The notes under the pieces: generated by a model
Seen by the model: only the letters and a program-made list of their open reading frames with translations
Databases searched by the model: none
What the model was told of the DNA's origin: nothing
Shown here: piece after piece, positions 3,540-29,613 of the stretch
Position numbering within the stretch: the first letter of the stretch is position 1
Layout of the letters: each line of letters opens with the position of its first letter
Virus record (IMG/VR): IMGVR_UViG_3300009545_000033
Location: 1 to 43,747 of that record
DNA length: 43,747 nucleotides
Strand: one strand, 5' to 3'
Source: a virus
Made by a program: the position numbers and the translations under genes

Positions 3540-4292
3540 ATGGAAACTCTGATGGTGGTACCGGATCTTCAAGTTCCCCTGCATGACAGGGAGTTCGTGG
3601 AGAAGCTCATTGAGGTGGCTGGCTACATTCAGCCCGACAAGCTTCTGTTCATCGGCGATCTGACCGACTCTACGGAGGTCGGTCGTTGGGTCAAGGGTCG
3701 CAAAGGCGAGTTCACCGGTGACCTTCAAGCGGCCTTTGATGAGGCCGCTGACATCATCCGCAAGTTCCGAAACACGGTCGGCTGGGCCTGTGAGATGTAT
3801 CTCCAGGACTCGAATCACGATTCTCGCACCCAGGAGTATATCAATGCCAACGCACCTGCATTGTCCAGCCTGCGAGCGCTCGATCTTGTCGAACTACTCT
3901 CGCTTGACCTCTTTCGCGTGTCCTATCTGCGAAAGCCCCATGACATCCTGCCCGGAGTGCTCTCTATGCATGGCCACGAACGATCCTACTCCCAAGTTCC
4001 TGGGAAATGGGGCCTTGATCGGTCGCGGGAGCATGGAAAGTCCATCATCTACGGACACACCCACACTCCGCTCTTGGTCACTTCGGGAATTGGCACAGGA
4101 GATACTCGACAGACTGTCTGGAGTATGAATGTGGGTCACGCCATGAACATGAGTAAGGCGACGTATCTCACTGATGACTACGCTACATGGAACCAGGCGT
4201 TTGGCCTGGTTCACTATGAGAATGGAGCCACCTACCCTGAGCTAGTTGTTGCTCAGAATGGGAAGTTCCACTTTGATGGGGAGATCTGGTGA
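3540..4292 (+). CDS. Metallophosphoesterase (calcineurin-like)
   Basis: The 250-residue protein carries the dimetal phosphoesterase motifs in order: D9-x5-H15 (PDLQVPLH, a variant of DxH), GD at 39-40 (FIGDLTD), N92-H93-D94 (SNHD in place of GNHD), H144-G-H146 and the terminal GHTHT (H173, H175). It therefore probably hydrolyses a phosphoester, perhaps a nucleotide or nucleic-acid end. It is the first gene of a two-gene rightward unit with the sigma-like gene, opposite to its neighbours. The start is the ATG matching the predicted transcription start; an upstream in-frame extension exists but lies in the divergent promoter. Confidence 0.88.
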   Translation: METLMVVPDLQVPLHDREFVEKLIEVAGYIQPDKLLFIGDLTDSTEVGRWVKGRKGEFTGDLQAAFDEAADIIRKFRNTVGWACEMYLQDSNHDSRTQEYINANAPALSSLRALDLVELLSLDLFRVSYLRKPHDILPGVLSMHGHERSYSQVPGKWGLDRSREHGKSIIYGHTHTPLLVTSGIGTGDTRQTVWSMNVGHAMNMSKATYLTDDYATWNQAFGLVHYENGATYPELVVAQNGKFHFDGEIW

Positions 4293-26907: not shown

Positions 26908-27801
26908 ATGGCACTACTCGATAACCTCTCTGGCGATCAGAGGAATGCCTATGAAGCTGTCAACAACCTGTTCAGCTCATACGGTCTGGATTCCCTGGCT
27001 CCGAAGATCTACTCCTACATTCAGCAGGGCTTCTCCTCTGACACGGTGAGCATCCTTCTCCAGGATACTCCCGAGTACAAGCAGCGCTTCGCTGGCAATG
27101 AGCTTCGCAAGTCTGCTGGTCTTCCTGTTCTCTCCCCGGCCCAGTACCTCTCCACTGAATCCCAGTACCGCCAGATTATGCAGGAGGCTGGATTGCCTCC
27201 TGGTTTCTACGATCAGCCCTCTGACTTCAATCAGTTCATGGCCAACGATGTCAGTCCATCTGAGTTGAAGTCTCGCGTTGATCTGGCGAATCAGGCAACC
27301 ACTATGGCATCGCCTGCCTTAAAGCAGGCGTTGCAGCAGATGTATGGCATTGATCAGTCTGGCATTAGTGCATACTTTCTCGATGAGAGTCGAGCTGTTC
27401 CTGAACTTCAGAAGCAGGCTGTAGCTGCTCAGATTGGCGCTGAAGCATTGCAGCGTGGATTGCAGATCTCTACCAATGCTGAGAATTACGCCAAGGCTGG
27501 TGTGACCGATGCTCAGGCGGCCAAGGCTTATGGTCAGATCGCCCAGCAGCTTCCCGAGTATTCTCGTGTAGCTAATCTTTTTGGTGAGAATGTGACTCAG
27601 GGAGATTTTGAATCAGCGCTTCTGGGTGACAATGCTGCACAGCCTGGTGCTGTGCAGACTACTGCTCCTGGTGGCACTACTTCCGAAACTCCTGAAGCAA
27701 AGCTTGAGCGACTTGCCTCATGGAATAGGGCTCAGCAGGAAGGCAAGGCTGGTGGCGCTGGAACCGCACAGGGTCTGGCAAGGACTAGCACAGAAGCTTA
27801 A
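26908..27801 (+). CDS. Virion-associated hypothetical protein, 297 aa
   Basis: Helical, Gln/Ala-rich with a Tyr-containing N-terminal domain (DQRNAYEAVNNLFSSYGL) that recalls the neighbouring virion proteins. The C-terminus is Thr/Ala/Gly-rich and probably disordered. It is the last gene before the internal promoter and tRNA. Confidence 0.8.
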   Translation: MALLDNLSGDQRNAYEAVNNLFSSYGLDSLAPKIYSYIQQGFSSDTVSILLQDTPEYKQRFAGNELRKSAGLPVLSPAQYLSTESQYRQIMQEAGLPPGFYDQPSDFNQFMANDVSPSELKSRVDLANQATTMASPALKQALQQMYGIDQSGISAYFLDESRAVPELQKQAVAAQIGAEALQRGLQISTNAENYAKAGVTDAQAAKAYGQIAQQLPEYSRVANLFGENVTQGDFESALLGDNAAQPGAVQTTAPGGTTSETPEAKLERLASWNRAQQEGKAGGAGTAQGLARTSTEA

Positions 27802-27804
27802 TGG

Positions 27805-27833
27805 TTGACACAGTAAACTATTTACGTTATAAA
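27805..27833 (+). promoter_or_regulatory. Consensus rightward promoter for tRNA and capsid genes
   Basis: TTGACA (27805-27810), exactly 17 bp, TATAAA (27828-27833): 11 of 12 consensus bases for the housekeeping sigma factor. Predicted start near 27840. It is the best promoter in the window and would boost tRNA, scaffold and capsid. Confidence 0.8.
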
Positions 27834-27871
27834 CAAAGTGAAGGGGACAACTCTCTCCCGTCTCCTTCTAT

Positions 27872-27943
27872 CTGGTGGTGGCCCAATGGTAGGGCACTCG
27901 CCTTGGGAGCGAGTGGTTGAAGGTTCGAGTCCTTCCCATCAGA
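27872..27943 (+). tRNA. tRNA-Pro (anticodon UGG)
   Basis: A full cloverleaf folds by hand: acceptor CTGGTGG/CCATCAG with one G-U pair, D stem GCCC/GGGC, anticodon stem CTCGC/GCGAG with loop CTTGGGA (anticodon TGG at 34-36), and T arm GAAGG-TTCGAGT-CCTTC. Discriminator A; CCA is not encoded. It reads CCA (and possibly CCG/CCU) proline codons and would be cotranscribed with the capsid genes. Confidence 0.9.
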
Positions 27944-28058
27944 CCGACACGAGGATCAACCGGCCCCGAGTGTCTGTAACTGAAGTCCGGTAGAGACGAT
28001 CAACCGTGTATACCCCGATGCATGGTTCGCGTTTCGCATCCATTAAGGGAGTAATGCA

Positions 28059-28523
28059 ATGAATGACGCATGGGGCGAAGACCTCGATCAGATCGCCAAT
28101 AGTGGTGGCGGCGGTGCGTTGCGCAAGTTCGCCGAGGATACGGCCAAGCAGAACCGAGAACTCATGGACCGTCTCGCAAAGCTCGAAGCGCAGAACACTC
28201 GCAACACTGTAGCCGATATGATCGAATCTCAGGGAGTCAGCCGTCAGGCCGCTCAGTATTACGGCGGAGACCCTGATCCCGAGAAGGTTGCCGCATGGGT
28301 CACCGACATGCGCAGTGCCTTTACTGGCACTGCTCCGGAGACTCAGACTCAGCCCGTTGAACCTGTACTCAATTCTACCGACATGAACCAGTATCAGAAT
28401 CTGATGCAGGCTGGTTCGAATGGAACTCCGGTTGTGTCGAACACTGATTCCCTTGGCGCCGCACTGTCGGACGCCAAGACTCCCGCAGATATGATTGCGG
28501 CCTTTCAGCGTTTCGCTCGATAG
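28059..28523 (+). CDS. Probable scaffolding protein, 154 aa
   Basis: It lies directly before the capsid gene. An N-terminal coiled coil (LRKFAEDTAKQNRELMDRLAKLEAQ split over residues 20-45) leads to an acidic, Gln/Thr/Pro-rich middle and a C-terminal helix. Small acidic helical proteins in this place usually guide prohead assembly. SD AAGGGAG before ATG. Confidence 0.75.
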   Translation: MNDAWGEDLDQIANSGGGGALRKFAEDTAKQNRELMDRLAKLEAQNTRNTVADMIESQGVSRQAAQYYGGDPDPEKVAAWVTDMRSAFTGTAPETQTQPVEPVLNSTDMNQYQNLMQAGSNGTPVVSNTDSLGAALSDAKTPADMIAAFQRFAR

Positions 28524-28559
28524 CAACTGAAGGGCTGCATCCTCCCTTAAGGATGTGAA

Positions 28560-29564
28560 ATGGCTAACGCCTTTACTGGCACTGCCTCTATGGCGAACCT
28601 TGTCCAGACCGCGTATGACCGCGCTCTTGAGTTCGCCCTTCGTGCTCAGCCAATGTTCCGCATGGTCGCCGACAAGCGACCCGTGCAGCAGGCTATGCCT
28701 GGTTCGTCTGTTGTGTTCGAGATCTACCAGGACCTCGCTCAGCAGATCACCCCACTGAATGAGCTGGTTGACCCTGACGCCGTTGCAGCGGGTAACCCCA
28801 GCACTGTCAGCGTTACTCTCAACGAGTACGGTAACGCCATTCTCGTCAGCAACAAGCTCGACCTGTTCTCGTTCACCGACGTGACCGCTGGTCTCGTCAA
28901 TCAGGTGGCGTGGAACCTGGTTGACTCTGTCGACCTGATTGTGCAGAACGTTCTCGCTGGTACTACTCAGACCCTGCGTCGTGATCCGACCACCGGTAAC
29001 GTCACCTATGGTTTCGGTAGCAACCCTACCCAGCCTACCGCGCTGACTTCCATCACCTCTGCTGGCACCAACGCGAACAACACCTTCAGTTCCAGCATGG
29101 CGCGTACTGCTGTTGTGCAGCTGCGCACCAACAAGGTTCACCCGAACAAGGGCAGCTTCTACACCACCTACATTCACCCACAGGTCTCCTATGATCTGCG
29201 GTCCGAGACTGGTGCTGCTGCCTGGCGTGACCCGCACAACTACAGCGCCGCCGAGAACATCTGGGCTGGCGAGATCGGCGAGTACGAGGGTTCCGTCTTC
29301 ATCGAGACTCCTCGCGCCATCAACGCTCAGGTTGGTGCTGGCTCTGGTTCGACCCAGACTCGCGTGTTCAACACGTACACTGTTGGTCAGCAGTCTCTTG
29401 CCGAGGCTTGCGCTGAGGACTTCCACACTGTTCGTGGTCCGGTTGTCGATAAGCTCACCCGCTTCCAGCCTCTTGGTTGGTACGGTGTCGCCGGTTGGTC
29501 CCTGTACCGTCCGGAGGCTCTGATCATGAGCCAGACTATTGCGACTCCTCGCCCGAACGCGTAA
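28560..29564 (+). CDS. Major capsid protein
   Basis: The 334-residue protein follows the scaffold, has a strong consensus promoter upstream and a terminator downstream, and is coded with unusually regular codons (many GTC, CTC, ACC, GGT), as expected for the most abundant protein. Sequence features fit an HK97-like shell protein: an N-terminal arm, a mixed core (LVQTAYDRALEFALRAQPMF; SVVFEIYQDLAQQ) and a beta-rich P-domain. The assignment rests mainly on synteny and composition. Confidence 0.88.
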   Translation: MANAFTGTASMANLVQTAYDRALEFALRAQPMFRMVADKRPVQQAMPGSSVVFEIYQDLAQQITPLNELVDPDAVAAGNPSTVSVTLNEYGNAILVSNKLDLFSFTDVTAGLVNQVAWNLVDSVDLIVQNVLAGTTQTLRRDPTTGNVTYGFGSNPTQPTALTSITSAGTNANNTFSSSMARTAVVQLRTNKVHPNKGSFYTTYIHPQVSYDLRSETGAAAWRDPHNYSAAENIWAGEIGEYEGSVFIETPRAINAQVGAGSGSTQTRVFNTYTVGQQSLAEACAEDFHTVRGPVVDKLTRFQPLGWYGVAGWSLYRPEALIMSQTIATPRPNA

Positions 29565-29569
29565 TGAGT

Positions 29570-29597
29570 AAGGGGTGGGCTTTCGGGCCCACCCCTT
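29570..29597 (+). terminator. Terminator after the capsid gene
   Basis: AAGGGGTGGGC pairs with GCCCACCCCTT around TTTCGG, an 11-bp stem followed by TTA. It would make capsid transcripts more abundant than those of the genes downstream. Confidence 0.8.
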
Positions 29598-29613
29598 TTA
29601 CCTTGGAGCCATT

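Follow-up and report, generated by a model that had tools for sequence, protein, structure and literature searches.

Comparative sequence analysis of an apparently exchangeable tRNA module and a covarying leader RNA ahead of phage scaffold and capsid genes

The tRNA-Pro gene and its surroundings

Why does a phage carry a single tRNA gene directly ahead of the genes for its scaffold and major capsid proteins? The question is raised by virus record IMGVR_UViG_3300009545_000033, of which a stretch of 43,747 bases with a G + C content of 53.9% (the window) was analysed; all features given below lie on its plus strand unless stated otherwise. ARAGORN found one tRNA in the window, tRNA-Pro(tgg) at 27872-27945, and Rfam family RF00005 matched 27872-27943 with 68.6 bits, with cloverleaf and anticodon both in place. 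The tRNA-Pro(UGG) that an initial annotation had read ahead of the scaffold and capsid genes was thus confirmed by both programs. Only this tRNA reached its Rfam gathering score in the window; the sub-threshold matches, two in the window and several in relatives, were taken as chance. The bacterial proline identity set consists of C1-G72, A73, G35 and G36. Read off the sequence, the window tRNA has C1-G72, A73 and the anticodon loop CUUGGGA, and all elements of the set are present.

The tRNA begins 70 nt past the stop codon of a 297-aa gene (26908-27801) that matches PHROG 8424, of unknown function, and lies 115 nt ahead of the 154-aa scaffold gene (28059-28523; PHROG 7813, unknown function), whose counterpart in phage Dennebes is named scaffolding protein. 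The major capsid gene follows at 28560-29564, as identified by family matches to Phage_capsid_3 and PHROG 1357. The slot occupied by the tRNA is bounded by a tail-region gene on its 5′ side and by the scaffold and capsid genes on its 3′ side, and most relatives with a contig long enough to show it have a homologue of the upstream gene 5′ of the slot. Between a promoter-like box, considered below, and the tRNA there is a 9-bp hairpin, GAAGGGGAC / GTCTCCTTC (27840-27868), recognised from the sequence and its predicted fold; a different hairpin was seen by eye in the same gap in a number of relatives. On the minus strand a 495-aa open frame (27939-29426) runs antisense across scaffold and capsid, and is probably a by-product of codon usage.

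Relatives sharing the locus

Capsid proteins with 71-77% identity to that of the window, across 92-100% of the latter's length, are encoded in 29 Streptomyces phage records, and wherever an inspected record names a subfamily (Manuel, Immanuel3, FlowerPower, Abafar and kin) it is Beephvirinae. The order upstream gene, tRNAs, scaffold, capsid was common to all ten phage records inspected. These Beephvirinae phages carry 14-23 annotated tRNAs in the slot, the first for Pro and the last for Val, whereas the window has one; the distance from the last tRNA to the annotated scaffold start is 113-117 nt, and 79 nt in Percastrophe. In JXY1 (MN994275.1) the capsid match falls in two pieces across two annotated genes, perhaps through a sequencing frameshift.

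Capsid searches of IMG/VR with three queries supplied the best 80 of 303, 436 and 202 relatives. The 252 parsed loci were reduced to 128 that were unique over the 170 nt ahead of the scaffold gene, and a census of 122 loci was obtained by removing the distant outgroup L093 and five loci with a mis-parsed scaffold start (L040, L106, L120, L142 and L172). The leader element described below is present in L040, L106 and L142 according to the covariance model, and in L120 by eye. Three further pattern matches (L107, L119 and L126) have no capsid start within the available stretch; L107 and L126 end in a scaffold-like start and L119 runs off the edge. Among 84,980 bacterial and archaeal genomes, 30 stretches matched a pattern and none encodes a capsid relative, in a search able to detect close relatives only. 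A DNA search for near matches returned nine records, with the match confined to the capsid gene, and in a search for distant matches to 27780-28100 the annotated entries among the best 10 of 370 matches showed tRNA similarity. The tree used below was built from 115 capsid proteins by a quick method, with 32 of its 100 inner branches starred.

A structured leader precedes the scaffold gene

Comparison of these loci revealed a shared pattern ahead of the scaffold gene, independent of which tRNA is present. From 5′ to 3′ it consists of a hairpin of variable sequence (P1) with an ACCGGC-type loop, the sequence AAGNCCGG or a matching variant, an outer stem (P2), a second hairpin (P3) whose loop is CCCC or CCCTA, the Shine-Dalgarno sequence and the scaffold start codon. 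In the window the element spans 27942-28064 by the model match, taking in the first scaffold codons. The tRNA (27872-27943) is followed by CC and then by P1 (27946-27974), in which GACAC at 27946-27950 pairs with GTGTC at 27970-27974, followed by a tandem GA mismatch and GG/CC. Four bases, CCGG at 27960-27963, can pair with CCGG at 27987-27990 to form a pseudoknot, PK1 (27960-27990), supported by alignment and covariation. The outer stem P2 (27994-28034) joins AGACG (27994-27998) to CGUUU (28030-28034) and recurs as a stem in relatives; it encloses P3 (28002-28027), AACCGUGUAU / AUGCAUGGUU, with the loop ACCCCG at 28012-28017. P1 and P3 are likewise backed by covariation.

A covariance model, R1, was trained on 40 copies from 64 candidates, with the window, L159, L102 and L094 left out. 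It matched the window with 51.5 bits (E = 2e-12), the next-best match having an E value of 5.1, and found the element once each in 98 of 99 sources, 40 of them training copies. The sole miss was the distant phage LuckySocke; in the distant capsid relatives Pascal, BRock and LuckySocke and in phage Shady the best match had E = 0.38 and was rejected. The window copy has the fifth lowest score among the 98 copies, and its P3 is divergent. In two loci the leader contains additional hairpins, located near P3/P2 in L031 and between PK1 and P2 in L059, and the order of the conserved parts is preserved.

Over the 98 copies, standard pairs fill 95.0% of 2212 pair cells, double changes occupy 736 cells (206.6 on average in shuffles), and covariation scores 0.838 compared with 0.183 for shuffled and at most 0.091 for slid partners; these statistics favour P1, P2 and P3, which were fitted by the model, while PK1 lies outside it and is paired in 100% of the cells with letters. 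The number of pairs with a double change (22 of 23) is barely above that in shuffles (mean 19.8). A hand-annotated MAFFT alignment gave 82.8% pairs and a covariation of 0.537, against 0.181 shuffled and at most 0.210 slid. In that alignment all four PK1 pairs are present in 88 of 89 copies (1000 shuffles: mean 66.8, maximum 73), the exception, L159, being apparently misaligned. Six PK1 types were distinguished (CCGG/CCGG, CTGG/CCAG, CCAG/CTGG, TCAG/CTGA, TCGG/CCGA and GTGG/CCAC), and the type switches at least 19 times along the capsid tree, a count for which complementary partners were selected by design and L012 and L169 were left unassigned; the unbiased PK1 counts are the alignment-based ones (88 of 89 copies; 100% of cells). 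P1 has a mean of 8.5 pairs and 6.0 with swapped strands; for P3 the means are 8.8 and 4.7, a comparison that favours P3 in that its strands were picked as the best native helix.

A plain minimum-energy prediction for the window leader was uninformative: 27838-28070 folded alone is not unusual (z = -0.91), and the minimum-energy structure disrupts the tRNA. In the window and in six relatives, no Rfam 15 family scored close to or above its gathering threshold on the leader, and no description of the family was found in open-licence papers, a body of literature with subscription papers mostly outside it. At the level of sequence comparison, the structure, conservation and place of the leader are demonstrated, and it is on this evidence an RNA family with strong covariation that Rfam 15 does not contain.

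Agreement between the P3 loop and the Shine-Dalgarno sequence

The Shine-Dalgarno sequence of the window scaffold gene is AAGGGAG (28045-28051), and sequence comparison suggests that its GGG can pair with the CCC of the P3 loop (PK2). Among the 98 copies the Shine-Dalgarno sequence is GGGAG in 75, CTAGGAG or TTAGGAG in 20 and neither in three. Copies with CTAGGAG or TTAGGAG have the P3 loop CCCTAG or CCCTAA, a loop that the other copies lack; those usually combine a CCCC loop with GGGAG. The types of loop and Shine-Dalgarno sequence are concordant in all 115 loci (29 with the CTAGGAG or TTAGGAG combination, 86 with the other, none mixed). Each trait changes six times on the tree, but no more than four independent pairs sit on supported branches (p = 0.125). 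At least five contiguous loop-Shine-Dalgarno pairs can form in 69 of 89 copies, and the summed complementarity of 1134.5 exceeds that in 300 shuffles (mean 1101.8, maximum 1132.5) by a narrow margin. These data suggest that PK2 is likely to form.

The tRNA module is replaced while the leader stays

Scored at a fixed offset, P1 is directly preceded by a T-arm in 88 of the 98 copies, compared with 80 of 4499 random positions, and about 3 nt separate the end of the acceptor strand from P1. An ARAGORN tRNA ends 109-130 nt before the scaffold gene in 79 of the 122 census loci, regardless of the size of the array: the tRNA is single in 37 of the 79, and the others have up to 24 within at most 3.5 kb of upstream sequence. 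The slot-adjacent tRNAs of the 79 loci cover 14 amino acids, together with two odd calls. In L029 and L031 ARAGORN reports beside the leader a tRNA-??? with a two-letter anticodon, and the anticodon loop has 6 nt by eye.

By our own reading, the 43 census loci without an ARAGORN tRNA still have a T-arm in 31 cases and none in 12. The T-arm is absent from the fixed offset in ten of the 98 copies, one of which (L128) has an ARAGORN tRNA. Copies without a module are L092, the L105 group, L101, L106, L149 and L163, mostly distant relatives; thus the leader can do without the module or with another arrangement. L092 (ct2KA10, OX376640.1), which has the element and no tRNA-like module, encodes a capsid protein about 45% identical.

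Counting reduced modules (stubs) as types of their own, the module type has changed at least 50 times on the 115-capsid tree. L003, L004 and L005 encode identical capsid proteins, and their modules end in tRNA-Phe, tRNA-Pro and tRNA-Asn, respectively; between L003 and L004 the leader is identical, the scaffold genes are 99.8% alike and the modules 60%. L066, L068, L070 and L071 likewise share one capsid protein; L066 has tRNA-Asn and the other three a stub. Between such near-identical phages (L003/L004/L005 and L066/L068) the module changes at a sharp border next to P1, which resembles a cassette exchange. That modules are interchangeable is evident from these comparisons.

Stubs retain the acceptor and T-arm half of a tRNA

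Twenty-seven non-standard modules, cut by hand at visible borders, were folded. An acceptor stem and a T-arm with a 7-nt loop were found in 17, and the other ten fold otherwise. The stub of L009 is a 12-bp hairpin, or minihelix, with a T-loop and ACC. Those of L015 and L059 have 5 + 7 bp and an 8-nt linker, with compensated acceptor pairs (GGATG/CATCC and GGTAG/CTACC), and those of L033, L063, L068 and L081 have 4-5 + 6-7 bp joined by some 11 nt of linker; L081 has a weak additional stem. Four arms, with an anticodon loop of 6 nt, are seen in L031 and L041. Among the ten others, the T-loop closes further, to a 3-nt loop, in L032, L065, L076, L135 and L109; in the first four its letters (TTCACAA, TTCGCGA) are self-complementary, which may give the 3-nt loop. 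The acceptor of L008 is irregular, the module of L121, just upstream of an element on the minus strand (3588-3726), combines two hairpins with an acceptor stem and lacks a T-loop, and the modules of L034, L047 and L014 have other folds. By eye, the modules of L094, L136 and L120 resemble the tRNA-like domain of tmRNA: they have a G3-U70 acceptor pair and a TTCGAC stretch, and no mRNA-like part. The T-arm of the L015 stub gave a sub-threshold tmRNA match (16.6 bits; gathering score 47).

In a crude test of acceptor pairing most individual stubs were non-significant alone. The combined test over 30 stubs gave p = 5e-7, a value that ignores kinship and includes at least one wrong assignment: the wrong T-arm was taken for L008, and L031 was missed, its T-arm being shifted by an insertion.

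Possible role of the module and leader

The free identity of the tRNA, the turnover of the module and the survival of its acceptor/T-arm half suggest that the selected feature is a shape read by tRNA-processing enzymes; if so, the module most likely marks a cut between the upstream and the capsid mRNA. The slot would then be the 5′ boundary of the capsid message. Transcripts from the tail-region genes, and in the window perhaps also from the promoter-like box, would carry the module joined to the leader. Host RNase P would cut at the module, with RNase Z or an exonuclease probably acting on its 3′ side, and the cut would separate the upstream mRNA from a scaffold-capsid mRNA whose 5′ end lies at P1 or a few nucleotides before it. 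P1 and PK1 could act as a clamp at this new 5′ end, and P2/P3 together with PK2 could hold the scaffold ribosome site, so that the leader would set the stability and translation of the capsid unit. The partner that releases or represses it would likely be an assembly protein, such as scaffold or capsid. We propose that any tRNA can serve as the module, and a bare acceptor/T-arm minihelix too, because of which identity would drift freely. Since the T-arm is missing from ten of the 98 copies and from 12 of the 122 census loci, the module is not needed everywhere. The initial annotation had offered a leader cleaved by RNase P; the acceptor/T-arm half, which tends to be kept where the rest of the tRNA is gone, favours this indirectly, and it is cleavage, 5′-end protection, regulation and the regulatory partner that we infer. 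The reading in which a swappable processing tag releases the capsid message, ahead of a pseudoknotted translational leader, has in our judgement slightly better than an even chance of being correct. The more specific statement, that exchangeable tRNAs and minihelices are natural RNase P punctuation freeing the capsid message for a new double-pseudoknot leader family, with selection on the top half of the tRNA and on the leader but not on the codon, falls somewhat short of an even chance and is put forward tentatively.

The slot could instead be a docking place for tRNAs used in decoding or in resisting host defences that cut tRNAs, with the leader alone functional and the stubs functionless relics, recombination between near-identical T-arms shrinking the arrays and always leaving the T-arm and the acceptor 3′ half by the leader. 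Up to 24 tRNAs do occupy this same slot, and tRNA-Pro is the single or last tRNA on separate branches (the window; L155/L156; L037), as array deletion predicts. The authors of a paper on Abafar, a phage of podoviral type, tie its 15 tRNAs to the evasion of tRNA-targeting defences (PMC11536984). Relics should decay, however, yet the acceptor stems of L015/L059 and of L032/L076/L065 are paired with compensated changes; the combined acceptor test, with the kinship and assignment errors noted above, and the tmRNA-like folds in the slot of L094 and L136 also count against a mere docking place, which we regard as unlikely though a serious contender.

The close spacing of acceptor strand and P1 would also suit a single uncut compound RNA in which the acceptor stacks on P1 and which binds the ribosome, EF-Tu, or the capsid or scaffold protein. 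Standard tRNAs and long tRNA arrays are normally processed, and both abut the leader too; some copies, mostly of distant relatives, have no module at all. An uncut compound RNA is improbable.

Promoter-like box, terminator and codon usage

The initial annotation had explained the locus by a strong near-consensus promoter driving the tRNA and capsid block, with tRNA supply possibly matched to capsid translation. A promoter-like box with 11 of 12 matches does lie just past the upstream gene (27805-27833; TTGACA at 27805-27810, a 17-nt spacer and TATAAA at 27828-27833), and it is the sole sigma-70 consensus site of that quality on either strand of the window; the final T of its -10 element is missing, and a scan demanding that T passes over it. 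In 20 dinucleotide shuffles of the window, 11 such sites arose in total (0.55 per window), with at least one in seven shuffles, so the box is not beyond chance. A search for a conserved sigma-70 promoter found a box with 10 or more of 12 matches no more than 160 nt upstream of the first tRNA or tRNA-like module in three of 115 loci, the window included. The promoter thus stands as the best such sequence in the window, but at chance level and not conserved in relatives, and control of the tRNA-capsid unit by it does not hold as a general rule.

The end of the proposed unit fared better. An 11-bp intrinsic terminator, AAGGGGTGGGC-TTTCGG-GCCCACCCCTT-TT, was recognised in the sequence 3′ of the capsid gene (29570-29599), where it had been annotated, and 82 of 113 loci have a similar hairpin after the capsid gene, compared with four of 113 control windows within the capsid gene. 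Because the leader and the post-capsid terminator both recur in relatives, scaffold and capsid appear to be expressed as a unit of their own, which upholds that part of the earlier reading.

Codon usage does not fit the supply idea. CCA accounts for three and CCG for six of the 18 Pro codons of the capsid gene, CCA is absent from the scaffold gene, and over 16 selected ORFs it is the rarest Pro codon (74 of 374); the CCA/CCG count in late genes, proposed as a check, gave no enrichment of Pro codons. The idea is further opposed by the relatives' tRNAs for 14 amino acids beside the leader. Codon supply as the reason for the tRNA was therefore ruled out by the codon counts and the free identity, and in spite of the box and the terminator, a strong local promoter coupled to tRNA supply is very improbable.

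The phi29 packaging RNA is a small RNA acting in virion assembly, and a head-gene locus in phages of podoviral type would suit a separate RNA of that kind, but the leader ends at the scaffold start codon in the loci read and its P3 loop agrees in type with the Shine-Dalgarno sequence, pointing to action in cis, which makes this the least credible of the explanations.

Comparison with known systems

What is new here is the leader family together with the exchangeable tRNA module. The lineage with the leader is a group of soil phages, and the leader sits at the point where the most abundant virion proteins would be controlled. If the proposed role is true, phage tRNAs would have a second reason to exist, as processing marks in mRNA, and the question can be tested directly on the natural series that runs, in one fixed slot, from 24 tRNAs through a single tRNA to a 34-nt minihelix.

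That a tRNA can mark a cut beside a protein gene is known from mitochondrial tRNA punctuation and from bacterial tRNA-mRNA operons such as tRNA-tufB. The present locus differs from these in that the identity of the tRNA is free, a minihelix is possible and a conserved pseudoknotted leader abuts the module. The window tRNA has the acceptor and T-arm helix of an RNase P substrate, and hairpins of acceptor stem, T-stem and T-loop are described as RNase P model substrates (PMC11143913). The stubs of L009, L015, L059, L033 and L068 have the same make-up, but unlike those substrates they are natural sequences in a likely phage mRNA, and their cleavage is putative.

Structured phage RNAs often encoded near tRNA islands include GOLLD and ROOL (PMC12286853). 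Neither family model matched in the window or six relatives in the Rfam search, and many GOLLD members are longer than 800 nt and form cages.

The T4/RB69 gene 32 operator has a pseudoknot 5′ of the Shine-Dalgarno sequence in a phage mRNA leader (PMC535899). PK1 is likewise a pseudoknot upstream of the ribosome site, and the leader resembles the T4 operator in plan, with a pseudoknot near the 5′ end and likely a second at the ribosome site. The gene 32-type operator works by autogenous repression through a bound protein, and any such repressor of the present leader is putative; the leader also differs in the gene it precedes, in its P1/PK1 and P2/P3 fold with likely loop-Shine-Dalgarno pairing, and in the tRNA module at its 5′ side.
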